A DNA stretch of 37,922 nt, taken from contig RDXM01000111.1 of the NCBI GenBank assembly GCA_004292595.1, positions 1-37,922 of the forward strand, given 5' to 3'. Numbering within the stretch: position 1 is the stretch's first letter; each line of letters begins with the position of its first letter. Of this stretch, positions 14,309-35,447 are shown piece by piece. A program made the position numbers and the translations under genes. A model generated the notes under the pieces. That model was not told where the DNA came from. It searched no databases and was given only the letters and a program-made list of their open reading frames with translations. This stretch comes from Candidatus Kapaibacterium sp. (lineage in GTDB: Bacteria > Bacteroidota > Ignavibacteria > Kapaibacteriales > UBA4661).

Positions 14309-14677
14309 TCAGGCAGTTATACCCAAATGATATTTTACTACTTCAACAACTTCTTTCATTTGAAACGGTTTTGTAATATAGTCCACTGCACCCAGCTGTA
14401 ATCCCTTTTCACGGTCAGGAACGGTGCTGAGAAAAACAACAGGAATGCTGGGAGCCATGATTTTTAGCACTTGGCAGGTTTTGTAGCCGTTGAGACCTTC
14501 CAAAATAATATCAAGAACAATTAAATCTGGTTTAAAATCTTGCACCAATTTCAGTGCCGCTTCGCCTGAAGATGCTGTAAATACATCGAATCCAGCACCA
14601 GCGAGAATTTGAAACAGAAGTTTCAAACTCATTTCGTGGTCATCAACGACCAAGATAGTTTTTCCATGTTTTTTCAT
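14309..14677 (-). CDS. Single-domain response regulator (CheY-like receiver)
   Basis: A 122-residue receiver domain with no output domain. The acidic pocket is Asp12-Asp13 (VVDDHE), the phospho-acceptor is Asp56 (DLIVLDII), the switch Ser/Thr is at 84-85 (VVFLSTVP), and the conserved Lys103 is in YITKPF. Such proteins pass a phosphate to another protein or act in chemotaxis-like or c-di-GMP circuits. No kinase gene is next to it. It is preceded by moeA (15945-14725, same strand, 47 bp) and followed by the SufU-like gene. The partner cannot be inferred from the sequence. Confidence 0.93.
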   Translation of the reverse strand: MKKHGKTILVVDDHEMSLKLLFQILAGAGFDVFTASSGEAALKLVQDFKPDLIVLDIILEGLNGYKTCQVLKIMAPSIPVVFLSTVPDREKGLQLGAVDYITKPFQMKEVVEVVKYHLGITA

Positions 14678-14724
14678 AATTGCCCTACTTCACACAAGGT
14701 TAAAATGTAATTGATAAATTATCC

Positions 14725-15945
14725 TCAAAGCAGCATCACATCTATTGGTGCACCTTCTTCAAGGGTGGCATCAATATCCAAAAATACAAAACCATCGGCT
14801 TCGGTCAATGAAGTAAGCATAAAAGATTCTTGTTTTTCGAGCGGAATCGCTAAAGGCAGCATCGTTGCTGAGGTTTCTAGCGAAGAGTTTTGCAAAGGAT
14901 ATTCTAAACGTACTCGCAAAAATTCTGCTCGTCCGCCAGCGTTCACGAGGTTTTTGCTCATTCGAGCTTGAAGAATGCGCCAAGCGTGTGTGCGCCCCAG
15001 CATTGATGCAATCACGGGTTGCGCGTAATGAATAAAACACATCAGCGTCGAAACGGAATTGCCTGGCAGCCCGAAAAGCAGCGTATTTTCTCGCTTTGCA
15101 AAGAAGAGTGGCTTGCCTGGCTTTTGGCGTACTCGCCAAAAAATGGTCTCGAAACCCAGTATTTGCGCAGCTTCTTTGATATGGTCGTGTTCGCCCACCG
15201 AAACGCCGCCTGTTGTGCAGATAATATCGCACGTTGCGGCAGCTTCTGAACATACGTCAATACTGGCTTGCAAGCTGTCGGAAACGTGGCGCGTCATTGC
15301 ACAGACTCCGCCGACATTTTCGATTGCGGCTTGAAGCATCGGCGTATTTGCATCGTAAATTTGCCCTGAAAGCAAGGTTTTATGATGGTTCTCAGGTAGA
15401 GCAATAATTTCCGTTCCCGTGGCAATTAAGCCCACACGTGGCGCGGCAAATACGGGCAATTCCGCATAGCCGCACTGCGCCGCAAGCGCGATATGCGCAG
15501 GACGCAGTACCGTGCCAGAACGCAGTATATGTGCGCCTTGCAGGTATTCCGTACCTTGCACCCGAACCCATTGCCCCTTGCGAACAGGCTTTTTGACAAG
15601 AATATTTTTGCCCTGAATTTCAATATCTTCAATCGGAATCACCGTGTCTGCACCATCGGGCAACACCGCGCCAGTACTAATGCGCACGGCATCTCCCTCG
15701 CCAAATATTTGCAAAAAAGGGTTGCCTGCTGCACTTTCGCCAATGAGTTTGTACGTAGCCGCATTCTCTGTACAGCGCACCGTTACGCCATCCATTGCGC
15801 TATTGGTGAAGCGTGGCGAAGGCTCTTTTGCAACAACATCCTCTGCAAGCGTGTATTTATGGGCTTTTGCAAGAGCAAGCATTTCCACTCGTGCTGGTGG
15901 AGTATGCTCTTGAACAAGACGTTTTGCTTCTGAAACTGTTATCAT
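14725..15945 (-). CDS. moeA: Molybdopterin molybdenumtransferase MoeA
   Basis: A 406-residue enzyme that inserts molybdate into adenylylated molybdopterin, the last step of molybdenum-cofactor synthesis. The start at ATG 15945 has a perfect GGAGG five bases upstream; that Shine-Dalgarno spans the stop of moaA, so the two are translationally linked. Family motifs: FTNSAMDGV near residue 45, GAVLPDGADTVIPIED, CTTGGVSVGEHDHIK, and FWRVRQKPGKPLFFA ... FGLPGNSVST. A C-terminal MoeA domain IV-like region follows. Full length. It works with MogA (24956-25489), which makes adenylyl-molybdopterin. Confidence 0.96.
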   Translation of the reverse strand: MITVSEAKRLVQEHTPPARVEMLALAKAHKYTLAEDVVAKEPSPRFTNSAMDGVTVRCTENAATYKLIGESAAGNPFLQIFGEGDAVRISTGAVLPDGADTVIPIEDIEIQGKNILVKKPVRKGQWVRVQGTEYLQGAHILRSGTVLRPAHIALAAQCGYAELPVFAAPRVGLIATGTEIIALPENHHKTLLSGQIYDANTPMLQAAIENVGGVCAMTRHVSDSLQASIDVCSEAAATCDIICTTGGVSVGEHDHIKEAAQILGFETIFWRVRQKPGKPLFFAKRENTLLFGLPGNSVSTLMCFIHYAQPVIASMLGRTHAWRILQARMSKNLVNAGGRAEFLRVRLEYPLQNSSLETSATMLPLAIPLEKQESFMLTSLTEADGFVFLDIDATLEEGAPIDVMLL

Positions 15946-15946
15946 T

Positions 15947-17008
15947 TTACCCTCCAATCGCTGACATAGAATCAAAAAATTCGCCGTGCGCGTGGCTCTG
16001 CTCTTCGGCTTCGATGCCGTCTTTGTGGCGATGCGCGATGCAGTCCAGCAATCGCTCACGAAGCTCGTCATTACTTGCGCCGTCGCGGATAAGCTGCTTT
16101 ACATCCAAGACACCATTGTCGTACAAACAGGTTTTTACAATGCCTTTTGCGGTGAGACGAATACGATTACACGCGCCGCAAAACGTTCGCGAAAAGCCAG
16201 CAATGATGCCGATTCTACCTTTGTACGATGGAACGTGAAAGAGCATTGCCGTCGCTGATTCTGTGCGTCCGGCGCGCTCAAGATTTGGAAAGTGCGAGCG
16301 CAAGTGTGCCTCAATCGCCGCATCATTCCACGCGATTGCAGGACTTGAGTGATTTTTTGCGCCATTAAACGGCATTTCCTCAATAAAGCGCATATCAAAG
16401 CCGTGAAGGCGCGTCAATTCTGCCATTGGAACAATATCTTGTGAATTTTTCCCGTCCATAATCACCGCATTCACAGAAAGAAGAATTTGCGACTCCAACA
16501 GCGCGTGAAACGTAGCATGGACACTGTCAAACTCGTTACGGCGGGTTAATTCGTGGAAACGTTGTTTGTCAAAAGAATCCATGCTAAGATTTACCGAAGC
16601 CACGCCAAGACGCACCAAATCTGGTACTTTATCCGCAATACCAACGCCATTAGTGGTGATATGCACTTCCTCAATGCCAGATATGTGTTTGATGTCACGA
16701 ATAAGTTCCAAAAGATTCGGGCGCAAAAACGGCTCTCCGCCCGTCAAGCGAATTTTCCGTACCCCAAAGCTCGCACAAACACTCACAATGCGTAAAATTT
16801 CTTCATCGGTGAGCAGATGCTTTTGTGCCAGAAAGCGCATATTTTCTGGCATACAGTAGGTGCATCGCAGATTGCATTTATCGGTGAGCGCAAGACGCAA
16901 ATACGTTATCGGGCGACCGTAATTATCCACTGCAAAACTGCCTCCAGCACCGCCTGATTGTTGGTGTGGTGGGGAAATTGAAAGTGGCGACAAAACTGGC
17001 AGTTGCAT
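15947..17008 (-). CDS. moaA: GTP 3',8-cyclase MoaA (radical SAM)
   Basis: A 353-residue radical-SAM enzyme that, with MoaC, converts GTP to cyclic pyranopterin monophosphate. The N-terminal cluster ligands are Cys45, Cys49 and Cys52 (CNLRCTYC). The C-terminal cluster that binds GTP is Cys277, Cys280 and Cys294 (CGACNRIRLTAKGIVKTC). The chain ends in Gly-Gly, as needed for activity in this family. The first gene of a moaA-moeA unit, separated by one base. It is divergent from moeB (start 17057), so promoters for both must lie in the 48-bp gap or inside the genes. moaC, moaD, moaE and mobA are not in the window. Confidence 0.97.
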   Translation of the reverse strand: MQLPVLSPLSISPPHQQSGGAGGSFAVDNYGRPITYLRLALTDKCNLRCTYCMPENMRFLAQKHLLTDEEILRIVSVCASFGVRKIRLTGGEPFLRPNLLELIRDIKHISGIEEVHITTNGVGIADKVPDLVRLGVASVNLSMDSFDKQRFHELTRRNEFDSVHATFHALLESQILLSVNAVIMDGKNSQDIVPMAELTRLHGFDMRFIEEMPFNGAKNHSSPAIAWNDAAIEAHLRSHFPNLERAGRTESATAMLFHVPSYKGRIGIIAGFSRTFCGACNRIRLTAKGIVKTCLYDNGVLDVKQLIRDGASNDELRERLLDCIAHRHKDGIEAEEQSHAHGEFFDSMSAIGG

Positions 17009-18888: not shown

Positions 18889-19450
18889 ATGACCGAAGAA
18901 CTGCGTAACGAAGCGCAACGCCGCTTGTCCTTGCTCTATTTGGATGCACTATCCAAAGAACTGTTTGTTGTGCAGACCAGCATGTATGAGCATCTGCCCC
19001 CCCCCCGCAATACGCGCCACCACTGCCGCATCAGTCGCCCCAGCGCGGCACTATGCCAGGCGTGGAAAGAAGAGAACCGCAACCACCCTTTTCGCCAACA
19101 TCGCTTGTATTCAAGACAGGTTCAGGTATGCTGGCGGTGGAGTGTGCGAATATCCTCCGCTTTGATGCCGACGGCAAAATACGATACTCCACACCACAAA
19201 GGATGCAAAACCGCGCTTGCTCTTTCACGCTCTTGCCGAGATAGAAGAACGCTTGCGCAACGACCACCGCTTTACGCGGTGTAGCCGCTCGACGATACTC
19301 AATCTCCATCATTGCAAAGGCTGGAAACACGCACAAAAAGACGCGCTTGTCTTGTGTGAAATAGCTGGAAAAGAGCAGGAATACAGCATTTCCCGTACCT
19401 ACAAAGCAGCATTTGTGCGGGCATGGACGGAATTTGTCCAACGGCGATAG
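18889..19450 (+). pseudogene. LytTR-domain regulator, frame broken twice (poly-C tract and A-run)
   Basis: A LytTR DNA-binding protein without a receiver domain, readable only by joining three frames. Frame 1 (from ATG 18889) gives MTEELRNEAQRRLSLLYLDA and a Pro-rich start. After a C10 tract (18977-18986) frame 3 continues with PPQYAPPLPHQSPQRG ... LVFKTGSGMLAVECANILRFDADGK. After AAAA at about 19178, frame 2 continues NTILHTTKDAKPRLLFHAL, then ALAEIEERLRNDHRFTRCSR and TYKAAFVRAWTEFV, ending at 19450. One C fewer and one A more would restore a protein of ~187 residues. The LytTR fold is clear (strand KTGSGMLAVECANILRFDADG; helix EIEERL; RCSRSTILNLHHC). LytTR regulators commonly control peptide (bacteriocin or pheromone) operons, and the GG-leader peptide gene follows. 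It may be phase-variable, decayed or mis-sequenced. Confidence 0.65.
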
Positions 19451-19468
19451 AAAAGAAGAAAAAGCGGT

Positions 19469-19552
19469 GGGCGGTTCATTCCGAAAAACGGGCGGTTTAT
19501 TCCATTGTGTGGGCGGCTCGTACCAAATGCAGGGCAACTCGCGCCATTGCTC
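19469..19552 (+). repeat. Four direct repeats with exact 21-bp period
   Basis: Units GGGCGGTTCATTCC, GGGCGGTTTATTCC, GGGCGGCTCGTACC and GGGCAACTCGCGCC start at 19469, 19490, 19511 and 19532, each followed by seven variable bases. LytTR-family regulators typically bind paired direct repeats with centres ~21 bp apart, so this may be the operator array for the LytTR gene just upstream or for the peptide gene 160 bp downstream. An inverted pair, CCGCCCG (19603) and CGGGCGG (19631), follows in the same gap. Confidence 0.6.
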
Positions 19553-19712
19553 TTGTGGAGGCAGGAAGAATGCTGTAATTTTGTGGCGTGTACAAAGCAC
19601 AACCGCCCGCCACATTCTGCTCACGTGGTACGGGCGGCTGCACAAGGGAAACAAATGCGACTCTGATTCCTGAAGTGCAAATATAACTCTTGTGAGCGGA
19701 AAAACTATTTTT

Positions 19713-19862
19713 ATGGAGTTTTCCGTGATGGAAAAATTCAATAATCTTCCCGTTGTTGAGCTGAATTCAGTTGAACTTTCTTCTTTTGTTGGTGGCGATA
19801 ATACTGCCACAGTTGTTGTTCAAAATCCGAAACCTTTGACTCTGTCTAAGCCACCGCTCTAA
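19713..19862 (+). CDS. Small double-glycine-leader peptide precursor
   Basis: A 49-residue ORF (44 if started at ATG 19728, which has GGAG ten bases upstream). It starts MEFSVMEKFNNLPVVEL and continues NSVELSSFVGG, then the core DNTATVVVQNPKPLTLSKPPL. The ELSSFVGG stretch is a textbook double-glycine leader end (Glu at -8, Leu at -7, Phe at -4, Gly-Gly at -2/-1), the signal cut by C39 peptidases. The predicted 21-residue core has no Cys or Trp, is rich in Thr, Val, Leu, Pro and Lys, and carries about one net positive charge. It has its own terminator, and a C39-containing ABC exporter and HlyD protein follow. It may be a bacteriocin or a signalling peptide; no similarity to a named peptide is recognised. 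Confidence 0.8.
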   Translation: MEFSVMEKFNNLPVVELNSVELSSFVGGDNTATVVVQNPKPLTLSKPPL

Positions 19863-19889
19863 TCAATTTTGAGCAAATATTTAGATAGC

Positions 19890-19938
19890 AACAGCCCTCA
19901 AGATAATTTATGAAATTGCTTTGGGGGCTGTTTTTTTT
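19890..19938 (+). terminator. Terminator/attenuator after the peptide gene
   Basis: Arms AACAGCCCTCAAG (19890-19902) and CTTTGGGGGCTGTT (19919-19932) form a strong stem followed by a run of eight T's. It lies between the peptide gene and the peptidase gene. Some transcripts should end here, giving more peptide than export-machinery mRNA, and the rest read through. Confidence 0.85.
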
Positions 19939-19965
19939 ACAATCACATTCATTCCGATACTCCGA

Positions 19966-21612
19966 ATGCACCTCAATAAACATACACATCCGTTGCTCGT
20001 ATTGATGTTTTATTTTGCTTGCTCAGGTCTTTGCTTCGCTCGAATACAGGACTCAACGACAAGCAAAATAATTGAATCTAGCATTATTGATTCTTTTTTG
20101 CTAAAATACAAGGCAAGCGAAGATACTTTAGCAATACTGCAAAAAGATTTTGATTCAAACACCCGTACTTATGTCGTACTACCCTATTTGATAAATAAAC
20201 ATTGCGTACTCTCAATATATACTCAATTTTTGACCAATGCGCAGGGCGAGTGCTTTTTAGGTTATTTACCTAAAGACGAACAACATCACCGTTTGCTACT
20301 TCATAATCTGACAGCCTCATGCTCACAAAAACAAGCAACGGTTACAGAAATAGATTCTGGGCTGCAATGGCGCATAAAAGCTGCTCCAAATAGTCGTGTG
20401 AGAGTGCATTATCTTATATTCCTTGATTCCTTAACGGCAAATAATCAAGACTATTACAAACCTTTTCCAGCACTCTTTGATAAAACTTACTTTATTCTCA
20501 AAGGTATTTCATTATTTCTTGCGCCAAAAGAGGTCGGGAGCTATCTCGAAAAGCAAACTATGTTTGAGCTTCACTGGCTGAAAAACCCTAACATTCCTCA
20601 ATGGAAGTACGCAAACCGCTTTGGTAACACCAAAGATATTCAGAAATTTCATACCTCATATGATGTGTTTCTGAATACACTGTATTGTGGTGGTAATGCA
20701 GATACTTCAACAAAACACCCTGAATTTAAACTATCGAATGAGGCAGTTGATACAACCTCTGGTATTTCTCTCTTTACACTCGGTGTTTTTACAGACGAAC
20801 GACATAGTATATTTATCAAAGAATTACAGCGTATAATTCAAGCAGAGCGAAAACTTTGGAAAGATACGACACCATTTCATTACCTTTCATGCCTTGCTGG
20901 TGCTGGCTTTGAACGAGAACAAGATGTCATTGCATTTGCGGTTCACGATAGTTTTTTCGGCATCCTCTCTGACCGCATCACCTCTATCAATGGTGCGGTA
21001 AAGTATCTTCTCTCGCATGAAATTATGCACCGTTGGATAGGACCGCCTCAGATTCCCAGCGAGAGTGCATCAGGCTTCGGATTCTGTGCCATTGAGGGAT
21101 TCACCGAATATTTTGCTCGTTTGGTCTTGCTTCAATCACATTCTATCTCCGAACAGGAATATGTGCAAGAATACAACAAAGCTATCGCACTCTATCATGC
21201 GTCCGCACAAAAAAATGCTGTTGCTGATTCCGTCAATACAAACTTTTGGAAAGATTTAACCATCATGCGCATTCCGTACTATCGTGGTGATATTCTTGCC
21301 CATAATTGGAATGCTGAAATCACGCGCCATACCAAAGGAAAATACACCTTTGCTGATGCTTTTCGTTCTATTCGCTCAACACAAAAGCGCATTACCGATA
21401 TAAGTTTTGCAAAATCACTGAAGCCATATATTGGTCGAGACGTGATGCCAGATATTTTGCGGATTATGAAAAAAGGTGCAATGGCGCAACCTGATAAAAA
21501 TGCACTGCCGTTTGCAAGTCTTGAATGGCTCACCATTCCTTCGCCCAATGATAGCACAATAACCGTCAAAGCACCACAATACGTGCTGCGTAGCTCTTTG
21601 CTTCGTCACTAA
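19966..21612 (+). CDS. Secreted gluzincin metallopeptidase (M1/M61-like)
   Basis: A 548-residue protein starting at ATG 19966 with a signal peptide (MHLNKHTHPLLVLMFYFACS, cleavage near CFA). The open frame upstream runs through the terminator and is not coding. The active site is HEIMHRW at residues 351-357. The third zinc ligand is probably Glu377 in AIEGFTEYFARL, 21 residues after the HEXXH, resembling M61 glycyl aminopeptidases and related M1-like 'MA clan' proteins. Residues 1-330 form a beta-rich N-terminal part with no recognised motif. The gene is 27 bp upstream of the PCAT gene and on the same strand as the GG-peptide gene. Possible roles are trimming the exported peptide, degrading it as self-protection, or an unrelated periplasmic function; sequence alone does not decide. 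Confidence 0.82.
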   Translation: MHLNKHTHPLLVLMFYFACSGLCFARIQDSTTSKIIESSIIDSFLLKYKASEDTLAILQKDFDSNTRTYVVLPYLINKHCVLSIYTQFLTNAQGECFLGYLPKDEQHHRLLLHNLTASCSQKQATVTEIDSGLQWRIKAAPNSRVRVHYLIFLDSLTANNQDYYKPFPALFDKTYFILKGISLFLAPKEVGSYLEKQTMFELHWLKNPNIPQWKYANRFGNTKDIQKFHTSYDVFLNTLYCGGNADTSTKHPEFKLSNEAVDTTSGISLFTLGVFTDERHSIFIKELQRIIQAERKLWKDTTPFHYLSCLAGAGFEREQDVIAFAVHDSFFGILSDRITSINGAVKYLLSHEIMHRWIGPPQIPSESASGFGFCAIEGFTEYFARLVLLQSHSISEQEYVQEYNKAIALYHASAQKNAVADSVNTNFWKDLTIMRIPYYRGDILAHNWNAEITRHTKGKYTFADAFRSIRSTQKRITDISFAKSLKPYIGRDVMPDILRIMKKGAMAQPDKNALPFASLEWLTIPSPNDSTITVKAPQYVLRSSLLRH

Positions 21613-21639
21613 TTTGAACAATTATCATTCTGCTTCGTC

Positions 21640-23847
21640 ATGTCCTCCAAACGCCCAATCTGCATCCTCCAACACGACACCAAAGACTGCGGCGCAGCCG
21701 CACTCGCAGCAGTGGCATGGTATCACGGCTTGAAGATGCCGATTTCCACCATTCGCCACTATGCCGCCACGAACCGCACGGGAACAACGGTGCTGGGGCT
21801 TGTCCATGCCGCAGAAAAGCTGGGGTTTATGGCGAAAGGGGTTCGGGCGGAGTGGGATGTACTCCCGAAGCTGCCTTTGCCCGCCATAGCGTATATTTCC
21901 TTGCCGCGTGGGGGACATCATTTTGTGGTGGTCTATGCCTTGCACAAAAAGTATGTGCTGGTCGCCGACCCCGCACGTGGCATGGTAAAAATGCCAATAG
22001 CAGAATTCCGTGCGGCGTGGAGCGGCGTTCTCTTGCTGCTCGCACCCGATGAACATTTTGAAGCAGGCGACAAGCGCGAATCACATCTTGCGCGGTTTCT
22101 CCGCCTTCTGAAACCGCATAAACGCTTGATTGCTGAAGGTATCGTCGCCACGCTTGCCATGACGCTTTTGGGGCTTGCTTCTGCGCTCTTTATGGAGCAT
22201 TTGGTGGATGACGTATTCCAAAACGGCAATGCAAAACTGCTGAACGTGATGGTGATTGGCATGGCACTGATTACGGTATTCAATCTCTTTCTCGGTTGGG
22301 TGCGCCAAGAACTCATGCTGCACGCCGCGCAACGACTGGATTCCACCCTTATTCTCGGCTACTATCGCCATATTCTGCGCCTTCCGCAGGAATTTTTCGA
22401 CACGCGGCGCGTCGGCGAGATTCTCTCCCGTGTGAACGATGCCGCGAAAATCCGCATGATGATTAGCTCTGTGCCACTTTCGCTCGCGGTGGACACGCTC
22501 ATGCTCGTGCTTGCCTCCGTGATGATGTTTCTCTACTCGTGGCAGTTGGCGGTCTTCGCACTTGCGTTTGTACCGTTGTGGGGCGGCGTGGCTGCATTAC
22601 TGCTTGCACCCATTCGCAAAACGCACCGCGCCATGATGGAAGAAAATGCGGAACTGGAATCGCATTTGGTTTCGTCGGTAACAGGCATAAGCACGGTGCG
22701 GAGCTTTGGAGCGCAGGAGGCGCATAACCTTCGTGCAGAACAAGGCTTTGTGCGGCTTCTGAACCTTTCCCGCGACGCAGCCCGCCAAAGCATGATAAGC
22801 CAGACTGCAAGCAGCATGATTTCAGGCTTCGGAACAATAGGCTTGCTCTGGTTCGGCTCAACGCTTGTGCTGGAGAACGCACTCACCGTCGGTGCGCTGA
22901 TGTCCTTCAATACGCTCTTGGGCTATGTGATGTCCTCGTCGGGCAATTTGGTAAACGTGCAGCATACCGTCCAAGATGCGCTTATTGCCGCCGACCGCGT
23001 GTTTGAAATTCTCGCGCTCGAAACCGAAGACCAAACCCACAAAGGCGCATTCACGCTTGAGCGCGAGGAAATCACCACCGCGCAATTTGAAAACATTACC
23101 TTTCGCTATGCCGCCAGACCCGCCATTTTGCACGATGTTTCGTTCACGCTGCCACGCGGCACCATGACAGCGATTGTGGGCGAAAGCGGCTCTGGCAAAA
23201 GTACGATTGCAAAGCTCTTGCAAGGCTTTTACACGCCGAGCGAAGGGCGGATTTTGCTGGGCAATGACGGCGAAATGGTGGATGTACGCGACCTGCATTT
23301 GAGCAGTGTTCGCGGCGCGGTGGCGGCTGTTCCGCAGGATGTGGAGCTTTTTCACGGTTCGGTGATAGCCAACGTCGCGCTTGGCGAGGCATATCCCGAC
23401 GAAAAGCGTGTGCGTAGTATTTGTGCGATGATTGGGGCGGATGGATTTATTCAGGAATTGCCGGAACGCTGGAACACGATTCTTGGGGAATTCGGTGCCG
23501 ACCTCTCTGGCGGGCAACGCCAACGCCTCGCGCTGGCTCGGGGCTTGTACAGACAGCCGCAACTGCTCGTGCTAGACGAGGCGACATCCGCGCTGGACAG
23601 CGAATCAGAATTTGCCGTGCAGCAAGCACTCACGCACCTCCGCGAACAAGGCTTAACCGTGCTGACGATTGCGCACCGCCTCAGCACGATTGCCCGCGCC
23701 GACCAGATTTTAGTGATGGACAAAGGGCGCATTGTCGAGCGCGGAACGCACACGGAATTGCTGATGAAGGAAGGAAAGTATTATGCTCTGTGGATGCGGC
23801 AAACGCTACAAATGAACACGGAGCAATATTTACCACAAACCTCATAA
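21640..23847 (+). CDS. Peptidase-containing ABC transporter (C39 + ABC, PCAT)
   Basis: A 735-residue inner-membrane exporter that cuts double-glycine leaders and exports the core peptide. The N-terminal C39 domain has the oxyanion Gln11, catalytic Cys17 (QHDTKDCGAAAL), His94 (GGHHFVVVYAL) and Asp110 (VADPARG). A six-helix ABC transmembrane domain spans about residues 150-450. The nucleotide-binding domain has Walker A GESGSGKST (514-522), signature LSGGQ (622-626), Walker B LLVLDEATSALD and the switch His in IAHRLST. All catalytic residues of both domains are intact. The HlyD gene follows after 10 bp. The natural substrate is very likely the peptide at 19713-19862, whose leader ends in VGG. 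Confidence 0.97.
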   Translation: MSSKRPICILQHDTKDCGAAALAAVAWYHGLKMPISTIRHYAATNRTGTTVLGLVHAAEKLGFMAKGVRAEWDVLPKLPLPAIAYISLPRGGHHFVVVYALHKKYVLVADPARGMVKMPIAEFRAAWSGVLLLLAPDEHFEAGDKRESHLARFLRLLKPHKRLIAEGIVATLAMTLLGLASALFMEHLVDDVFQNGNAKLLNVMVIGMALITVFNLFLGWVRQELMLHAAQRLDSTLILGYYRHILRLPQEFFDTRRVGEILSRVNDAAKIRMMISSVPLSLAVDTLMLVLASVMMFLYSWQLAVFALAFVPLWGGVAALLLAPIRKTHRAMMEENAELESHLVSSVTGISTVRSFGAQEAHNLRAEQGFVRLLNLSRDAARQSMISQTASSMISGFGTIGLLWFGSTLVLENALTVGALMSFNTLLGYVMSSSGNLVNVQHTVQDALIAADRVFEILALETEDQTHKGAFTLEREEITTAQFENITFRYAARPAILHDVSFTLPRGTMTAIVGESGSGKSTIAKLLQGFYTPSEGRILLGNDGEMVDVRDLHLSSVRGAVAAVPQDVELFHGSVIANVALGEAYPDEKRVRSICAMIGADGFIQELPERWNTILGEFGADLSGGQRQRLALARGLYRQPQLLVLDEATSALDSESEFAVQQALTHLREQGLTVLTIAHRLSTIARADQILVMDKGRIVERGTHTELLMKEGKYYALWMRQTLQMNTEQYLPQTS

Positions 23848-23857
23848 TCACTGACTT

Positions 23858-24913
23858 ATGAATTCTCCTACCATCATCGAAGCCGCCGACGCAAACGATA
23901 CGCTTGTCGCCGCACTTGGCAAACCCGCATCAGCACTGCGCTGGACGTACTACATCATTCTCGGTGTTCTTGCTGCGGCGGTTTGTTGGGCATATTTCAG
24001 CATCGTAGAAATAAGTGTCCATGCGCAAGGTGTGGTGCGCCCTGTGAGCGGTGTTCATGCGGTGCAAAGTAGCGTTGGTGGGTATGTGGAGCGGCTTTTG
24101 GTGAAGGAGAATCAATTTGTACAAAAAGGCGATACGCTGGCAGTGTTGGAAGCCGCATCAATTCAGGAGCAAATCGCACTTGTGCAATCAAAAATTACCC
24201 TTTTGCAGAAAGAGCTTTCCGATGTACGCGCCCTTGCCGAACTTCGCCCAAATTATACCTTTCACTTCCCTACCTTCGGGCGAGAGCGCGAACTCGCCTT
24301 GCAGGAACGCACCGTGCGTGAACAAGAATTGCACACCGCAGAGCAGAAACGCCAGCGTTCAAGCGACCTCTACTTAGAGCGTGAGAAGCAGATATTGTCT
24401 CGCATCCAAGACGAAGAACATCGCCTTGCCGAACTCCGCATTGAACGTGGGCGAACAATCCTTCGCACACCTGCAAACGGCTTTGTTACACAACTTGCAA
24501 TGAAAAGCCCGAATAGCCTGCTTCCTGCTCAGACTTCGCTCTGCACGATTTCCTCTAACGACGGTGCGCAGGTAGAATTTATGCTGCCTGCACGGGATGT
24601 TGGTTTTGTGAGAGAAGGGTTGCGGGTTCGCTATCAAATTGATGCCTTGCCGTTTCAGGAATGGGGCGCGGCAGAGGGACTAATCTCCATGCTTGCGAAG
24701 GATATTTCTCTAGCAAGGGCAGAACAAGAGCGCACACAACTTGCAGGATACAGCGTTATCGGTACGCTTGCAACGCCTCATCTAACCTCGCTTCGCCAGC
24801 AGAAACGCGCCAATATTCAAACAGGAATGACCTGCCGCGCAAGCGTTGTGGTTGCTGAAAAGCGCGTATTATCTATGCTATGGAATAAAACAGTGGCGTA
24901 TTTTGTGTTGTAG
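23858..24913 (+). CDS. HlyD-family periplasmic adaptor (membrane fusion protein)
   Basis: A 351-residue adaptor linking the PCAT exporter to an outer-membrane channel. It has a short cytoplasmic N-terminus, one membrane helix at about residues 30-50 (YYIILGVLAAAVCWAYFSIV), and a lipoyl half (VHAQGVVRPVSGVHAVQSSV ... GYVERLLVKENQFVQKGDTL). A coiled-coil hairpin of ~100 residues (IQEQIALVQSKITLLQKEL ... EKQILSRIQDEEHRLAELRI) is followed by the second lipoyl half (RTILRTPANGFVTQL) and a beta-barrel. It is 10 bp downstream of the PCAT gene and is the last gene of the peptide-export unit; the next gene, mogA, is convergent. No TolC-like partner is in the window. Confidence 0.94.
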   Translation: MNSPTIIEAADANDTLVAALGKPASALRWTYYIILGVLAAAVCWAYFSIVEISVHAQGVVRPVSGVHAVQSSVGGYVERLLVKENQFVQKGDTLAVLEAASIQEQIALVQSKITLLQKELSDVRALAELRPNYTFHFPTFGRERELALQERTVREQELHTAEQKRQRSSDLYLEREKQILSRIQDEEHRLAELRIERGRTILRTPANGFVTQLAMKSPNSLLPAQTSLCTISSNDGAQVEFMLPARDVGFVREGLRVRYQIDALPFQEWGAAEGLISMLAKDISLARAEQERTQLAGYSVIGTLATPHLTSLRQQKRANIQTGMTCRASVVVAEKRVLSMLWNKTVAYFVL

Positions 24914-24955: not shown

Positions 24956-25489
24956 TCATTTCGGGCGAAAAACCTTGATAACATCCTCATTCGCGGTCAA
25001 ATACGCCCCACCGATGAGGTCGAGACAATACGGCACAGCAGGAAACACCGTATCCAAGCACTCGCGTATGGATTTGGGTTTGCCCGGAAGGTTCACCATC
25101 AAGCATTTACCGCGCACTCCGGCTGTTTGGCGGGAAAGAATTGCCGTTGGAACATACTTCAAAGAAACTGCCCGCATTTGTTCGCCAAATCCGGGCAGCA
25201 TTTTCTCGCACACGGCTTCGGTGGCTTCAGGCGTAACGTCGCGCAAGGCAGGTCCCGTGCCGCCTGTGGTAACTATCAAACTACATCCAACATCATCGGC
25301 GAGATATTTGAGCATTTTTTCAATGCTCGCTTGGTCGTCGGAAACGACGTGGTAATGCGGTTTCCACGACGAAGAGAGATATTCGCTCAACGTATCAATA
25401 ATTGCTTTGCCTGAAATATCCTCGTACACGCCAGCACTGGCGCGGTCGGAACAAGTCAAAATACCGATGTTTGCTATGATTTGCGTCAT
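24956..25489 (-). CDS. mog: Molybdopterin adenylyltransferase MogA
   Basis: A 177-residue enzyme that adenylates molybdopterin before MoeA adds molybdate. The family core is present: IGILTCSDRASAGVYEDISG near the N-terminus, LIVTTGGTGPALRDVTPEA around residue 75, and a C-terminal VNLPGKPKSIRECLDTVFP. It belongs to the same pathway as moaA, moeA and moeB but is separated from them by ~6.7 kb of accessory DNA (18249-24913). Its start is 31 bp past the stop of the TonB receptor gene on the same strand, so the two may be one transcript. Confidence 0.95.
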   Translation of the reverse strand: MTQIIANIGILTCSDRASAGVYEDISGKAIIDTLSEYLSSSWKPHYHVVSDDQASIEKMLKYLADDVGCSLIVTTGGTGPALRDVTPEATEAVCEKMLPGFGEQMRAVSLKYVPTAILSRQTAGVRGKCLMVNLPGKPKSIRECLDTVFPAVPYCLDLIGGAYLTANEDVIKVFRPK

Positions 25490-25520
25490 GAATGTTTATC
25501 GAAGGTCGTAGAGTATTGTT

Positions 25521-29885: not shown

Positions 29886-30374
29886 ATGAAACGAGAAACC
29901 TTGCTCACACTTGCTGTTGCGGCATTGTTGGTGCTGAATCTTGGTATGATGGCATATCTTTTTATCAGCCGCCGTTCGCCTGAAGAGCGAGAAGGAATGC
30001 CGCAACAAGGCAGAAGGATTGATGAATTGATAATGACGCGACTGCGTTTGAACGAGGCACAGGTAGAACAGTTTAAGGCTCTCAAAAGCGGGCATCGCTC
30101 AGTGCTGGATAGCCTTGATAGCACATATCGTGGCATTTTGGCGCAGTATTTTCAATTAGCTCCGGGGGCAAAGATTGATACTGTGCTGCGGGATTCTTTG
30201 CAACGACGTTTGGAAAACCTTCACGGGCAAAAAATTATTGCAACGGGTCGGCATTTTGCAGACATCAAAAATATCTGTTCGCCTAAGCAACAATCCTTGT
30301 TTGAAGAACTTCTGCCCGAACTTTCCCGCATGATGCTTCAACCGCCCAGACCAAGGCGACGTGAGGGTGAATAG
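29886..30374 (+). CDS. Spy/CpxP-like periplasmic protein (LTXXQ-type, membrane-anchored)
   Basis: A 162-residue protein with one N-terminal membrane anchor or signal (LLTLAAVALL-like stretch LTLAVAALLVLNLGMMAYLF). A helical domain with the family pattern follows: MTRLRLNEAQVEQFKALKSG and later ICSPKQQSLFEELLPELSRM, ending in a PRPRRREGE tail. ATG 29886 has GAGG seven bases upstream; the frame is open 15 codons further. Relatives (Spy, CpxP, CnrX, ZraP) sense envelope stress or metals such as copper, nickel and zinc. Placed after sigma and anti-sigma genes and before the MbnP/MbnH pair, it could be the sensor of this system. Confidence 0.78.
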   Translation: MKRETLLTLAVAALLVLNLGMMAYLFISRRSPEEREGMPQQGRRIDELIMTRLRLNEAQVEQFKALKSGHRSVLDSLDSTYRGILAQYFQLAPGAKIDTVLRDSLQRRLENLHGQKIIATGRHFADIKNICSPKQQSLFEELLPELSRMMLQPPRPRRREGE

Positions 30375-30480
30375 CTCCTGTAAAAAAAATTCTCCGAAGA
30401 GCGAAGGAACTGATTGCGACCTGTCGTCAAAGGTGTTGAAAGAGCAAACCTTTCACAACCTTCACTTCTCCCACTCAACC

Positions 30481-32088
30481 ATGAAAAACTCAATGAAATT
30501 GTTATTCCTCCTCCTTTGCTGTATTGCCTCGTTTGCTCCCGCAAATGCGCAACGCAACGTCATTCTTATCATCGCCGATGATTTGGGAACGGATTATTTG
30601 GGATTCTACGAAGACCGCGCCGATACTGCTCCCATGCCTAACATCCGCAAACTTTTGGCAAGAGGCGTTCGCTTCCAAAACACGATGTCTGCCCCGCTCT
30701 GTTCTCCCACTCGCGCTGGTATTCTCACGGGGCGGTATGGCTTTCGGACGGGCGTGGGAGCGGTCGTGGAAATGGGTACGGTGGGTTCGCTGGACACGGC
30801 AGAAATGACTATTCCTCGTCTGCTGAACCTTTTCGCGCCCTCAGGAATTGCAAAAGCGAACATCGGCAAATGGCATTTGCAATCACCCATGCCAACGTCC
30901 AATCTCATATTCCCGAACAGAATGGGCTACGACCACTATGCGGGCAATTTTTCGGGGCAGCTTGCCAGCTACACAAACTGGTCGAAAGTTACCAACGGTG
31001 TTTCCAGCACAAGCACCGCCTACGCGACCACCGAGACCGCCAACGATGCGATTTCTTGGATAAAAGCACAAAACGCAAAACCGTTTTTTCTCTGGCTTGC
31101 TTTCAATGCGCCACATACGCCGTTCCATTTGCCGCCGACCAACTTGCATTCCTACAAGACGTTAAGCGGCTCTACTGCTGATATTCAAGCAAATCCCAAA
31201 TCGTATTTCAAAGCATCTTTGGAAGCACTTGATACTGAAATTGGGCGGCTCATGGATTCCTTGCAAGCATTGAAAAAGTTGGATAGTACTGATATTATTT
31301 TCATTGGCGACAACGGAAATACGCAGAGCGTTGCGCAAATCACGACGCGCAACCGAGCGAAAGGCACGATTTATCAATATGGCGTGAAAGTTCCGTTTAT
31401 CATTGCCGGACCGTCGGTGATTAACCCGAATAGAGTGAGTGCGGCATTGGTGAATACGGTGGATATTTTCGCAACGGTGCTGGAGTTGTTCGGCTTTGGC
31501 GCATGGCAAACCCGCATTTCTGCATCAAAGCCCGTTGATAGCAAAAGTTTGTTGCCCATTATTCAGAATAGGGCAACAGAGGTACGTCCTTGGGCATTTA
31601 CCGAGATTTTTAGCATCACGCCCGACCTTACAAATGACGGCAAAACTATCCGCAACGCCGCATATAAACTCATTCGCTTCGACAACGGCAATCAAGAATT
31701 TTACAATCTCCTCACCGACCCTAACGAGGCAAGTAATCTGTTTTTACGAACGCTCAGTGCGACGGAACGGGCAAACTACAATTACCTCTGCGGCGAACTC
31801 TCAACGCTCACAGGGACAACAGTCTGCAATACTGCTCTCAGCGTTGAAGAGACACGCGCTGATGATGTACCTCGCATCGCGCCTAATCCCGCTTCTACGG
31901 TTCTTCGTGTTTCGTGGAATGATACTTTGCCCTTTTCATACAAATTTACTTCGATTGATGGAAAAGTGGTGAAAGAAGGCTTATCCTTGCAGGATATTGA
32001 TGTTGCAAATGTTGCGCGGGGTGCGTATTTTCTGACTGTGAGCAAAGAAAATAAGACCTTTGTGGAGAAAATACTCATTCGGAAATAG
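30481..32088 (+). CDS. T9SS-sorted sulfatase (type I, formylglycine-dependent)
   Basis: A 535-residue secreted alkaline-phosphatase-superfamily sulfatase. ATG 30481 starts a signal peptide (MKNSMKLLFLLLCCIASFAP, cleavage ANA/Q). Metal ligands Asp33-Asp34 are in IIADDLGTDYLG. The formylglycine motif Cys74-x-Pro-x-Arg is in APLCSPTRAGILTGRYG, so a maturase (FGE or anSME) is needed; none is in the window. Later metal ligands are in FIGDNGNT. The last ~75 residues are a T9SS type A sorting domain (IAPNPASTVLRVSWND ... ARGAYFLTVSKENKTFVEKI). It ends 13 bp before the MbnP-like gene, so they are probably co-transcribed. The natural sulfate ester is unknown. Confidence 0.93.
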   Translation: MKNSMKLLFLLLCCIASFAPANAQRNVILIIADDLGTDYLGFYEDRADTAPMPNIRKLLARGVRFQNTMSAPLCSPTRAGILTGRYGFRTGVGAVVEMGTVGSLDTAEMTIPRLLNLFAPSGIAKANIGKWHLQSPMPTSNLIFPNRMGYDHYAGNFSGQLASYTNWSKVTNGVSSTSTAYATTETANDAISWIKAQNAKPFFLWLAFNAPHTPFHLPPTNLHSYKTLSGSTADIQANPKSYFKASLEALDTEIGRLMDSLQALKKLDSTDIIFIGDNGNTQSVAQITTRNRAKGTIYQYGVKVPFIIAGPSVINPNRVSAALVNTVDIFATVLELFGFGAWQTRISASKPVDSKSLLPIIQNRATEVRPWAFTEIFSITPDLTNDGKTIRNAAYKLIRFDNGNQEFYNLLTDPNEASNLFLRTLSATERANYNYLCGELSTLTGTTVCNTALSVEETRADDVPRIAPNPASTVLRVSWNDTLPFSYKFTSIDGKVVKEGLSLQDIDVANVARGAYFLTVSKENKTFVEKILIRK

Positions 32089-32101
32089 CGAGGAAATAAG
32101 T

Positions 32102-32848
32102 ATGATACGCCTTTCAATCGCACTTATCATTCTGCACAGCGTGGCTTTCGGTGCGGCATTGGGGCAATCTTTCGCTCAACAACGCCCCTTGAATGCAAAG
32201 ACAAGCGCAAGCACCATTCGCCTTTCCATAATCCCCACCTTTGGCGCAAAACCTATCGTCATCGGGGATTCTGCTTTTCAGGCGAAGGATGCCAACAACA
32301 CGCATATTGACGCACTAAAATTTTACATTTCCCGCATTCAATGTTTGCTCAAAGGCGTAGTGGTGCTGGAAGAAGCGCAGAGTTTTCACCTGATTGATGC
32401 GGCAAAGGAAGCGTCATTCCACCTTACCATTCAAAACAAGCGCGGAGCGAGGTTTGATGGGAAATTTGATGCGGTGCGCTTCCATCTCGGCATTGACAGT
32501 GCGACCAGCGTTTCCGGCGCAATGAGCGGCGACCTCGACCCCACACGAGGGATGTACTGGACGTGGCAAAGTGGGTACATCAACGTCAAGTGCGAGGGCA
32601 AAAGCAACGCTTGTACAGCGCGAAACAACGAGTACCAGTTTCATCTTGGCGGGTACAAGCAGCCGTTTGATTGTCTGCAAACGCTGATGTTTCCTGTATC
32701 GGTGAGCGATACAATTACTATTCAATTCGATGTGGAGAGCTTTTTGAGTAAGATTGATATGAAAAAGTATCATCACTTCATGTCGCCGAGCGCAGATGCA
32801 GTGCGCCTTTCAGCGCGGGCGGCAGAATCTTTTCGTATTGTTCCTTAG
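32102..32848 (+). CDS. MbnP-like periplasmic metal-binding protein
   Basis: A 248-residue exported protein of the MbnP family, known as the copper-binding partner of the dihaem enzyme MbnH, which oxidises a Trp of MbnP to kynurenine. ATG 32102 has GAGGAAAT seven bases upstream; residues 1-26 are a signal peptide (...GQSFA). The family signature is strong: FDAVRFHLGIDSATSVSGAM then DLDPTRGMYWTWQSGYINVKCEG and NEYQFHLGGY. Trp153 and Trp155 are candidate modification sites. Four Cys residues (81, 164, 171, 191) may form disulfides. The MbnH-like gene follows 12 bp downstream. No methanobactin precursor gene is seen, as in the many mbnPH pairs outside methanobactin operons. Confidence 0.87.
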   Translation: MIRLSIALIILHSVAFGAALGQSFAQQRPLNAKTSASTIRLSIIPTFGAKPIVIGDSAFQAKDANNTHIDALKFYISRIQCLLKGVVVLEEAQSFHLIDAAKEASFHLTIQNKRGARFDGKFDAVRFHLGIDSATSVSGAMSGDLDPTRGMYWTWQSGYINVKCEGKSNACTARNNEYQFHLGGYKQPFDCLQTLMFPVSVSDTITIQFDVESFLSKIDMKKYHHFMSPSADAVRLSARAAESFRIVP

Positions 32849-32860
32849 AGGTTGCAAACG

Positions 32861-33916
32861 ATGAAAACGAAGATTGTTTTTTTGCTCTTTTTTGTCGTTA
32901 TTGGCATTGCTGCCACAGCCTTCCGCACGAGCAATGACGCGCTTTTTGCTGTGCCAAAAGGTTGGCAAAAACCCGCGTATAATTTTCAGCAAAACCCATT
33001 AAGCAAGCAGAAAATTGAATTGGGGCGAGCATTATTTTACGACCCGATATTATCCAGAAACGGCATGGTATCGTGTGCTTCGTGCCATTCGCAGTATTCC
33101 GCGTTCACGCACGGCGACCACGCGCTTAGTCATGGCATTCACGACAGCATCGGCACACGGAACGCACCAGCATTGATGAACTTAGCGTGGCAACGAGTAT
33201 TTATGCGGGATGGAGCAATCAATCACTTGGATATGCAAGCACTCGCGCCCATCAGCAATCCGTCGGAAATGGGTGAAAATATTACGCACGTCGTGGCGAA
33301 GATGCAAGCAACCACGATTTATCCACAGCTTTTTGCGGCAGCCTTTGGCGATTCCGTTATTACAGGCGAGCGCACCCTGAAGGCGATTGCACAATTCATG
33401 TTGATTCTGGTATCAAGCAATGCCAAATATGACAGCGTGATGAGGAAACAAGCGGTGTTCACGGCTCAGGAGCGCAAGGGCTATACGTTATTCAAAAAAC
33501 ACTGCGCCACCTGCCATACAGAGCCGCTTTTCACGAATCATCAGTTTATGAATAACGGCTTGCCAGTGGACTCAACATTGCGAGATGTGGGGCGGTTTAG
33601 CGTAACGCAAAACCCTGATGATTCCTTGAAATTCGCCGTTCCAACGCTGCGCAATATCGAATTTTCCTACCCGTATATGCACGACGGACGCTTCAAGCGA
33701 TTGTCTGACGTGCTGCATTATTACACAGCGATTGCCTTGCAAAACCGCACAAAAAACCATACATTGGCGAAAGAATTGCAAACACCCATTATACTTTCTT
33801 CCGATGAAAAGGTTGATTTGACAGCCTTTCTTCTCACGCTGACCGACAGGATATTTCTCTTTAATTCAGCGTTTTCGTTTCCGAGAAATATTGTTTTTGA
33901 GACAGCGAAGGAATAG
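32861..33916 (+). CDS. MbnH-like dihaem cytochrome c peroxidase-family protein
   Basis: A 351-residue exported dihaem protein. ATG 32861 has GAGG eight bases upstream and gives a hydrophobic N-terminus (KIVFLLFFVVIGIAATAF). Haem motifs are CASCH at residues 72-76 and CATCH at 215-219. The conserved region GxALFYDPxLSxNGxxSCASCH is followed by GTRNAPALMNLAWQ and, later, DVGRFSVTQNPDDSLKFAVP and YMHDGRFKRLSDVLHYY, typical of the MauG/CcpA/MbnH superfamily. Being directly behind the MbnP-like gene, it is best read as the enzyme that oxidises a Trp on that protein, rather than as a peroxide detoxifier. Cytochrome c maturation genes are not in the window. Confidence 0.92.
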   Translation: MKTKIVFLLFFVVIGIAATAFRTSNDALFAVPKGWQKPAYNFQQNPLSKQKIELGRALFYDPILSRNGMVSCASCHSQYSAFTHGDHALSHGIHDSIGTRNAPALMNLAWQRVFMRDGAINHLDMQALAPISNPSEMGENITHVVAKMQATTIYPQLFAAAFGDSVITGERTLKAIAQFMLILVSSNAKYDSVMRKQAVFTAQERKGYTLFKKHCATCHTEPLFTNHQFMNNGLPVDSTLRDVGRFSVTQNPDDSLKFAVPTLRNIEFSYPYMHDGRFKRLSDVLHYYTAIALQNRTKNHTLAKELQTPIILSSDEKVDLTAFLLTLTDRIFLFNSAFSFPRNIVFETAKE

Positions 33917-33964
33917 GCGCAAAGCGTCGTCTAATGGGGAATATTATTGAAATACATTGGAAAT

Positions 33965-34001
33965 GAGATGTAGTCCACCTTCAAGGTGGACTACATCTCA
34001 A
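33965..34001. repeat. Perfect long palindrome, copy 2
   Basis: Two 18-base arms (TGAGATGTAGTCCACCTT / AAGGTGGACTACATCTCA) around a single C. Compared with the copy at 28614 one arm pair changes from T:A to G:C in both arms and the loop base from G to C. It lies between the MbnH-like and the YHYH genes. Confidence 0.85.
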
Positions 34002-34067
34002 GCACTAAACTTTTTTCAGATGGTTAGGCAAAAAAATCCATTTCTCCTCATATTATTCAATAGCACT

Positions 34068-35447
34068 ATGAAGAAAACCCTCATTCTCGCAGCGTTTCTG
34101 CTCTCCAGCGCACTTGGCAGCGTCGCAAACGCACAACTCAGCCCAGCAATCACCTCATGGCTCAGGAATACCACCAGAACAGGCACGTACTACGTTTCGG
34201 GCAATCCTACTGCCATATCCAATGGTATTTTGGTGAATTGCCAATCGGTGGAATACTCCGCAAACAGTGTGTATATCAGGGCTACGGGCGTTCCCGCGCA
34301 TCCGACGGGACCGTTTTTAGATAGAAATCCGTCTAATGCCACCAATCAAAATGCCATTTTTCAATTTCCGCTCACTCCAGTGAAAAATACGGGAACGCCA
34401 ACACCGACAACAGGCGGCAATATTGGCGTATTCATCAACGGCGTTGCCCTTTTTGACTACCGCGACGGCGTTGCATGGAATGCAAGCACAAATTCACTCT
34501 GCGGCGGTCCCGGCAACGCGCCGTGCGCGGGCGGAATGAATGCAACGCAGGCATGGAACAGAGATGCAGTCATCGCCGAACGGTCTGGTTTTGACTGCGC
34601 CAAAGCACACCCTGCTATGGGCAATTATCACTATCACCAGAATCCATCAGCGTTCAAGCTCGATTTGAAGGTGATTTCTACCATTTGCAATCTCTACGAT
34701 GCCGAAGGTTTGTACGCGATTGACAGTACGAAACATTCCCCGCTCATCGGCTTTGCATATGACGGATTCCCAATTTATGGTGCATATGCTTTCAGAAACC
34801 TTGACGGAACGGGTGGCATTGTACGCATGAAATCTAGCTACCAACTGCGCAATATCACGCGCCGTACTACCTCGCCAACAGGTGCGGCTGTTACCGCTGG
34901 ACCCGATGTCAGCACAACCTATCCGCTCGGATATTTCCGTGAAGACTATGAGTTCGTCGTACGCGCAGGACAAAATGACTTTTTGGACGAGCATAATGGC
35001 AGATTTTGCGTTACGCCAGAATATCCGCGCGGAATCTACTGCTACTTCGCAACCGTTGATGCAAACTGGAATTCTGCATATCCCTACGTCGTTGGACCAA
35101 CATTCTACGGTGTCTATGCAAACAGAAAAGTAACGGCAATTACGGAAACAATAACACGATTCACAGGCACAACGAGCGTCCGAAGCCAGCTTCAAGAAGG
35201 GTTAGAATTCAATGTTTTTCCCAATCCTTCCAATGAATTTGTTGCTCTTCAAGCACTTGGATTGAACAAAGAAGATGTTAAAGTTGAGCTTTTTGATGTG
35301 TCTGGAAAGCTAGTGCAAAAAAGTATTCTTCGTCAAGGCACGACCACAACCTACCTCGACACCAGAACGCTCTATGCAGGAACATACCTTGTGAAACTCA
35401 CAGGAACAAGCGGTACAACAATGAAAAAATTGGTAATTTCCAAATAG
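34068..35447 (+). CDS. YHYH-domain protein with T9SS sorting domain
   Basis: A 459-residue secreted protein. ATG 34068 starts a signal peptide (MKKTLILAAFLLSSALGSVA, cleavage NA/Q); the frame upstream runs through the palindrome and is not used. The central domain is the YHYH family: MGNYHYHQNPSAF with the motif at residues 187-190, then HSPLIGFAYDGFPIYGAY and DEHNGRFCVTPEYPRGIYCY. The His/Tyr clusters suggest metal binding, but the biochemical role is unknown. The last ~75 residues form a T9SS type A sorting domain (NVFPNPSNEFVALQAL ... YAGTYLVKLTGTSGTTMKK). It follows the MbnP/MbnH pair on the same strand after 150 bp and a palindrome, so it may be transcribed separately. Confidence 0.88.
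   Translation: MKKTLILAAFLLSSALGSVANAQLSPAITSWLRNTTRTGTYYVSGNPTAISNGILVNCQSVEYSANSVYIRATGVPAHPTGPFLDRNPSNATNQNAIFQFPLTPVKNTGTPTPTTGGNIGVFINGVALFDYRDGVAWNASTNSLCGGPGNAPCAGGMNATQAWNRDAVIAERSGFDCAKAHPAMGNYHYHQNPSAFKLDLKVISTICNLYDAEGLYAIDSTKHSPLIGFAYDGFPIYGAYAFRNLDGTGGIVRMKSSYQLRNITRRTTSPTGAAVTAGPDVSTTYPLGYFREDYEFVVRAGQNDFLDEHNGRFCVTPEYPRGIYCYFATVDANWNSAYPYVVGPTFYGVYANRKVTAITETITRFTGTTSVRSQLQEGLEFNVFPNPSNEFVALQALGLNKEDVKVELFDVSGKLVQKSILRQGTTTTYLDTRTLYAGTYLVKLTGTSGTTMKKLVISK

Follow-up and report, generated by a model that had tools for sequence, protein, structure and literature searches.

The blp locus of Streptococcus pneumoniae has a LytTR regulator, BlpR, and an exporter, BlpAB, and the bacteroidetocins have a double-glycine (GG) leader and a C39 exporter. 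The MfuA/MfuT/MfuP system belongs to Myxococcus fulvus, a member of a different phylum from the Candidatus Kapaibacterium host of the DNA analysed here. The bacteriocin cargo of blp is fluid, with recombination proposed as the driver (PMC4860687). In the pln locus of Lactobacillus plantarum, LytTR regulators, tandem repeats of 9 bp set apart by 12-bp spacers and an ATP-binding cassette (ABC) exporter for GG-leader peptides occur together with type II CAAX proteases (PMC2714321). In the Mfu system, a peptidase-containing ABC transporter (PCAT) cuts the leader at GG, and MfuP, an M61 peptidase, acts on the core of the PCAT-processed class II lanthipeptide (PMC10885120); bacteroidetocins are Bacteroidetes peptide toxins related to class IIa bacteriocins (PMC6671954). 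We analysed a locus of comparable content in a 37,922-nucleotide stretch of Candidatus Kapaibacterium sp. DNA (contig RDXM01000111.1 of assembly GCA_004292595.1; hereafter the window), in which genes for a GG-leader peptide, an M61-like peptidase, a PCAT and an HlyD-type adaptor follow a LytTR-type regulator gene.

An earlier note, made from the letters of the window alone, had described the precursor, peptidase, PCAT and HlyD genes as one system at 19713-24913. All four lie there on the + strand, and the system reaches further upstream than the note had it, to the LytTR gene and a set of repeats (18889-19583; Table 1). Compared with its relatives, the window appears as one allele of a locus with swappable cargo. 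We consider it probable that this locus produces secreted small, bacteriocin-like peptides, that it is organised like pln and blp and that the M61-like peptidase acts after export. It differs from pln and blp in its Gram-negative host, its HlyD adaptor and the M61 or E1-like enzymes in its cargo, and in that the LytTR proteins scanned have no receiver domain. Because no histidine kinase was found among the 29 open reading frames (ORFs) or pieces of the window covered by our Pfam scan, and no pheromone gene was recognised, we did not file it as a member of that group. Neither the LanM-type synthetase gene nor the Cys-bearing core of an MfuA-type class II lanthipeptide was found in the scanned window ORFs, and, as a further difference from the Mfu system, M61 is not kept with the PCAT among relatives. 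The bacteroidetocins resemble the locus by description, and the excerpts of PMC6671954 mention neither M61 nor cargo exchange. Among the titles listed by our literature search (15 of 35), none concerned bacteriocins of this bacterial group.

We compared the window, from genome G000, with the locus of a sister genome (G005; contig C53, JAAFIV010000057, labelled 'Ignavibacteria bacterium'; locus L013). By blastn (E 1e-4), positions 19017-19722 aligned at 86% identity, 21638-23806 at 92.7% and the MoCF gene (24956-25490) at 91%, and HlyD aligned in two pieces. No match was found within 19723-21637, the 1.9-kb cargo. The edges of the alignment lie 5 bases ahead of the precursor start and 2 bases ahead of the PCAT start. 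The G+C contents of cargo and PCAT were 0.40 and 0.56 in G000, 0.37 and 0.56 in G005, 0.40 and 0.53 in G001, and 0.42-0.43 and 0.54 in G002. We read the cargo as swappable because the shoulders are conserved (86% and 93%) and enclose 1.9 kb of A+T-rich cargo that matches nothing at the DNA level; G000 and G005 are the clear case of exchangeable cargo between a fixed regulator and exporter. Of 13 genomes, 4 had DNA of the left shoulder, and each of these belongs to this genus.

The G005 slot holds a related precursor and, in place of the M61 gene, genes for a ThiF-fold, E1-like protein (Pfam ThiF, 93.3 bits) and an alpha/beta hydrolase unrelated in sequence to M61. The PDB matches of the ThiF-fold protein were MccB (66.4 bits), PaaA (47.2 bits) and ThiF (31.7 bits). 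PADLOC yielded only weak E1 matches for it, and none for the hydrolase or for M61. The earlier statement that no modification enzyme lies nearby holds for the window allele, where the one radical S-adenosylmethionine (rSAM) match among the 29 ORFs or pieces scanned is MoaA-like, but not for the sister allele with its E1-like enzyme. The likeness to microcin C and pantocin A (MccB, PaaA) concerns the G005 allele only, and its precursor differs from theirs in having a GG leader beside a PCAT. The terms 'double glycine', 'PCAT' and 'C39' are absent from the main text of a 2025 review of ThiF-like enzymes for ribosomally synthesized and post-translationally modified peptides (RiPPs) (PMC12250964), and the six titles listed by a literature search, with most subscription papers outside its reach, included no counterpart to the pairing of GG leader and E1-like protein. 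In G001 (contig C265, locus L014) we found M61, an RDD membrane protein, a PCAT 79% identical to that of the window, and HlyD. The G002 locus contains LytTR, a pair of secreted-looking proteins, a precursor, one more protein and a PCAT frame that ends before LSGGQ. G008 belongs to another genus; it carries a single GG peptide gene whose sequence is partly N, a similar ORF that reads NG instead, and an Rce1-like gene.

In G002, the shoulder occurs a second time (C468, L064), with a transposase gene (DDE_Tnp_1) behind it at the expected place of the cargo. A simple empty site was sought in G003, where homologues of moeB, moaA and MoCF lie close together in another order, and insertion is not demonstrable from it. 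Between PCAT and HlyD, toxin-antitoxin genes occur in L013 (5183-6244) and L014 (4491-5186); in the window, no more than 10 bases separate PCAT from HlyD. Both loci have YafQ and a RelB-like protein (the RelB match of L013 is below the cut-off), and L013 additionally has HicA and a HicB-like protein. By this comparison, the gap between PCAT and HlyD is a second variable slot.

The small GG-leader ORF was borne out as described, but its start was not. The earlier note had begun it at 19713, giving 49 residues; TATGGAG there aligns with a Shine-Dalgarno-like AGGAG in the sister locus. Because that AGGAG coincides with ATG 19713, translation most likely starts at ATG 19728, which leaves 44 residues, with a 23-residue leader and an unchanged 21-residue core. 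As a short precursor with a predicted GG cut site, the ORF has V, L, L and F at positions -15, -12, -7 and -4 ahead of GG. These match the hydrophobic positions of the ComA and LahT leaders, although Phe at -4 lies outside the typical residues given there (PMC10885120). A strict GG-leader pattern matched 1 window ORF, where 30 Markov shuffles gave a mean of 0.03; for a loose pattern, the values were 1 and 0.53. Both patterns were composed after the ORF had been seen, and conservation at the codon level is the stronger argument. A weak resemblance of the leader to TIGR04149, an rSAM-modified family, scored 13.7 bits (cut-off, 25).

The sister precursor has 69 residues, with a leader that ends in GG followed by DNTATVSVGSPARLTLS. 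From GG to LTLS, 14 of 19 residues are identical between G000 and G005 (kept pattern GGDNTATV.V..P..LTLS), and 12 of the 14 identical residues have silently changed codons; over the whole aligned precursors, the count is 15 of 18. The corresponding figures were 116/691 for PCAT, 77/320 for HlyD and 39/172 for the flanking MoCF. Because silent codon turnover is high in the precursors and low in PCAT, HlyD and MoCF, selection appears to maintain the protein sequence of the window peptide, and the split between the two precursors appears to be much older than that between the surrounding genes. A split older in the cargo than in the flanks is what cassette exchange predicts. The precursor ORF looks like a real gene on these grounds, and the check for a conserved leader and codon constraint in relatives proposed earlier found both in the one sister genome whose precursor is homologous. 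The exact motif GGDNTATV occurred only in G000 and G005 among 99 genomes, and likewise among 395 genomes of the phylum (own included in both). The end of a G008 peptide (SSSGNTATVSIIR) resembles the DNTATV start of the window core, which may be chance; the presumed cut site of this ORF reads NG instead of GG.

As the earlier note had stated, the PCAT is complete, with C17, H94, D110 and intact ABC motifs: GESGSGKS (Walker A) at 514, LSGGQ at 622, LLVLDEA (Walker B) at 642 and AHRL at 678. A C39 domain with catalytic Cys, His and Asp is thus fused to a complete ABC exporter (Peptidase_C39, 124.9 bits; ABC_membrane, 178.5 bits; ABC_tran, 103.7 bits). Its best PDB match was PCAT1 (4ry2, 559.9 bits), and it is 96% identical to the sister PCAT. 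The HlyD adaptor was likewise recovered (HlyD_3, 45.3 bits). It is 35 residues shorter than that of the sister, at one place, and the missing stretch is kept in 5/5 aligned relatives. By its position, this deletion presumably removes the tip of the coiled-coil hairpin, where such adaptors meet the TolC channel. The GG-leader peptide gene is very probably served by the adjoining PCAT and HlyD. The genome has a second PCAT (C6, L002), 32% identical, beside an AhpC/TSA-type thioredoxin-like protein; this is a separate peptide system, and G007 (C61, L055) has a neighbourhood similar to it. More distant PCAT relatives come with different precursors: G024 has three tandem genes that share one core (L044, 5913-6582), and G016 has a similar gene (L047, 5787-5954), with leaders that end in IDAG and cores that end near TIWSF.

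The M61-like protein matched Peptidase_M61 (PF05299) at 26.7 bits (cut-off, 22) and has HEIMH with the next Glu 21 residues past the motif, so that the HEXXH motif, the distal Glu and the M61 profile are all present. Its N terminus, judged by eye, resembles a signal peptide. The sole PDB match at E up to 1 was 7xyo, 'Aminopeptidase M61' (38.8 bits), presumably from M. fulvus; the literature search found no paper naming 7XYO. The fold predicted by AlphaFold from a two-row alignment (mean predicted local distance difference test score, 34.1) was too poor for use.

The earlier note had treated precursor, M61 and PCAT as a defined and undescribed unit, and neither part of this claim was supported. 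A peptide pathway with PCAT and M61 has been published (MfuP, PMC10885120), and M61 is variable cargo, absent from the G005 and G002 alleles. G005 keeps a PCAT and a homologous precursor, but not the peptidase. M61 matches were limited to G000, G001, G006 and, weakly, G015 in a set of 99 genomes that included that of the window; in a scan of the phylum with a three-row alignment, 34/395 genomes matched, own included. As a candidate conserved core part, M61 was rejected: around the 11 strongest matches outside the genus (all E < 1e-30), the fetched flanks, which are short wherever a contig ends, held no PCAT and no GG-leader ORF. They held just two unrelated ABC ATPases (24-27% identity). The remaining, weaker matches had E values of 4e-14 to 1e-6. 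Several of the 11 homologues adjoin similar genes, of which the one tested was Peptidase_M16. By these comparisons, M61 is cargo and not a core part.

The regulator matched LytTR (PF04397) at 29.1 bits over 19217-19447. Its gene is out of frame twice in the window, at a poly-C tract and at an A run 1 base shorter than in L013. In the sister, the LytTR frame is open over 132 residues (44.1 bits), the contig beginning inside the gene, and in G007 (L051, 6137-6790) a single 217-residue ORF has LytTR as its sole Pfam match (25.1 bits). No receiver domain was found in these two proteins, that of L013 being cut by the contig end. The G005 and G002 contigs break off no more than some 15 bases from this C tract, as would be expected if its length varied in the population or if assembly simply failed there. 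The tract might serve to turn the entire locus on or off.

Tandem repeats spaced by 21 bp lie directly 3' of the LytTR gene in G000, G005, G002 and G007. PlnC and PlnD sites, with 9-bp repeats and a 12-bp spacer, have the same 21-bp period (PMC2714321). A pattern scan of 11 genomes, G007 left out (up to 3 mismatches; reversed control, 0), found repeat pairs in G000, G005 and G002 at this locus alone, with three overlapping matches each, and one further site in G001, ahead of a lipoprotein-like gene. In the window, a frameshifted LytTR gene and putative sites with a 21-bp period thus lie ahead of the peptide operon. At the further G001 site (C256, L075), the module of LytTR and 21-bp repeats precedes the lipoprotein-like gene and a 251-residue protein, and no GG peptide was seen there. 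A TTG-N20/21-TAnnTT(T/C)G element occupies the corresponding alignment position in all but one (L075) of the 6 loci examined, against a background in the window of about 0.02 for every 300 bases of a strand. It resembles the Bacteroidota promoter consensus; a scan with the sigma-70 consensus found nothing at the element. Past the precursor, a hairpin was present in 4 of 5 intervals, each differing in sequence (fold z-scores: G000, -3.2; G005, -5.0; G002, -2.7; G008, -6.1), and absent from the G024 interval tested, between tandem precursor copies. A simple terminator scan did not pick up the window hairpin. We read it as a putative partial terminator that would set a high ratio of precursor to exporter.

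Table 1. Coordinates of the features of the peptide locus in the window.
Feature	Coordinates	Strand	Details
LytTR-type regulator gene, 3 pieces	18889..19450	+	N-terminal (frame of 18889), middle (19053-19244), DNA-binding LytTR (19217-19450)
10-C run within regulator gene	18997..19006	+	Possible phase-variable tract
Tandem repeats GGGCGGYTCNTNCC	19467..19545	+	Exact 21-bp spacing, 3 clear copies and a weaker 4th; presumed LytTR sites
Promoter-like TTG-N20-TAnnTTTG	19553..19583	+	Bacteroidota-type -33/-7
Shine-Dalgarno-like GGAG	19715..19718	+	9 bases upstream of ATG 19728; aligns with sister AGGAG
Precursor peptide, 44 aa	19728..19862	+	Leader 19728-19796 (MEKFNNLPVVELNSVELSSFVGG), core 19797-19859 (DNTATVVVQNPKPLTLSKPPL)
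RNA hairpin, 13+6 pairs, then U run	19890..19932	+	Directly past precursor stop; possible partial terminator or attenuator
Secreted-looking M61-like gluzincin	19966..21612	+	HEIMH at 21016; alternative TTG start 19921
PCAT, C39 peptidase and ABC exporter, 735 aa	21640..23847	+	PF03412/PF00664/PF00005
HlyD-type periplasmic adaptor, 351 aa	23858..24913	+	In-frame 35-residue deletion at 24373/24374, presumed coiled-coil hairpin

From the gene content, leader motif, peptide constraint, repeats, hairpin and conserved shoulders around unlike cargo, we infer the following course of events. The LytTR regulator encoded at the left edge would bind the repeats downstream of its own gene and drive the promoter there, giving a transcript with the precursor, the hairpin, the accessory gene, PCAT and HlyD in this order. 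The hairpin would let only part of transcription pass, yielding much precursor and less exporter. The C39 domain would cut past GG, and PCAT and HlyD, together with an unlinked TolC-type channel, would export the 21-residue DNTATVVVQNPKPLTLSKPPL. Outside the cytoplasm, where its apparent signal peptide and the published MfuP suggest that it acts, the M61-like peptidase would work on the freed peptide, making a second maturation cut or destroying the peptide in self-protection; we give the two about equal odds. The exported peptide would most likely hit competitors, as bacteriocins or microcins do. In relatives, the shoulders and exporter would be retained and the A+T-rich cargo replaced by recombination. 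The bacteriocin-type neighbours in other alleles, namely, the Bacteriocin_IIc match in G002, the GG peptide with an Rce1-like gene in G008 and the MccB/PaaA-like protein in G005, were counted for the bacteriocin-like reading.

More tentatively, the locus may be a Gram-negative cassette system in which one LytTR promoter and one PCAT/HlyD pair serve interchangeable peptide chemistries, with the poly-C tract of the regulator as a possible switch. On this proposal, the predicted chemistries would be a Pro-rich peptide left unmodified and accompanied by a secreted M61, a relative of it paired with an E1 of the MccB/PaaA type, and a class II-like peptide rich in glycine. The G005 allele would then be a candidate ThiF-type RiPP with a GG leader and export by a PCAT; the G000 and G005 precursors share the DNTATV core start and have unlike processing partners.

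Several observations weigh against a bacteriocin-like locus with exchangeable cargo. The window precursor has no Pfam match, and the Bacteriocin_IIc match of the G002 precursor (18.9 bits, E 0.0016) is below the Pfam cut-off of 27.1. The precursor comparison consists of two sequences only, any G001 precursor lying beyond the contig end. The G008 peptide genes come after the PCAT and not in the slot before it. Outside the genus, the M61 homologues look stand-alone by their neighbourhoods. No kinase was found among the 29 window ORFs or pieces scanned, and neither a pheromone nor an immunity gene was recognised. With its frameshifted LytTR gene and shortened HlyD, the window copy may be decaying. 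Finally, open PCAT and HlyD frames were found in 3 of 8 genus genomes (G000, G005 and G001); of the others, G002 has the PCAT frame that stops short of LSGGQ, G006 and G007 have remnants, and G003 and G004 had no match at E 1e-10. G009 has a remnant as well.

The LytTR frameshifts, the 35-residue HlyD deletion and the remnants in G006, G007 and G009 would all suit a relic that no longer functions in this genome. We hold this to be rather unlikely: the precursor, M61 and PCAT frames are open, the PCAT remains nearly identical to that of the sister, and a single A or the length of a poly-C tract can be an effect of assembly or phase variation. A relic here would in any case be compatible with a bacteriocin-like locus in the ancestors, and frequent decay and replacement would suit a locus for competition. 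It is unlikely, too, that the exported Cys-free 21-residue peptide is not a toxin but a signal, an autoinducer or pheromone feeding back on the LytTR regulator. The LytTR gene and its presumed sites do adjoin the peptide gene, the core is short and Pro-rich, and GG peptides serve both communication and competition (PMC7018657). Nevertheless, such a loop would sit oddly with the absence of a histidine kinase from the scanned window ORFs and of a receiver domain from the two LytTR proteins, one of them incomplete, and unlike cargo with E1-like and glycine-rich alleles suits weapons better than a dedicated signal. We regard as distinctly improbable a core that receives modifications from an enzyme whose gene lies in another part of the genome, with M61 acting on the modified core as MfuP does. 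The published PCAT and M61 pair, in which M61 cuts a modified core (PMC10885120), the MccB/PaaA-like enzyme beside the related G005 precursor and the weak TIGR04149 resemblance point that way, but no such enzyme was found in the window allele, to which the search was limited, and a core without Cys cannot form lanthionine.

The surroundings of the locus have other contents. Molybdenum-cofactor genes flank it (MoeA, MoaA-like, MoeB-rhodanese and MoCF; window 14309-17008 region), and a stand-alone receiver-domain protein is encoded at 14309-14677. Further downstream, at 30361-35447, genes for a sulfatase, MbnP, a MauG-type cytochrome c peroxidase and a YHYH protein stand in a row, two of them with Por secretion tails.

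If the probable reading, a swappable-cargo locus for bacteriocin-like peptides, is true, the blp-type cargo exchange of Gram-positive bacteria would also occur in an uncultured Bacteroidota lineage, and one promoter and exporter would tolerate very different peptide chemistries. The locus would provide a second case that ties an M61 peptidase to a PCAT-exported peptide. Its alleles would also offer natural experiments, in which near-identical exporters are combined with precursors that are related and processing enzymes that differ, one of them an E1-like protein that goes with a GG leader.

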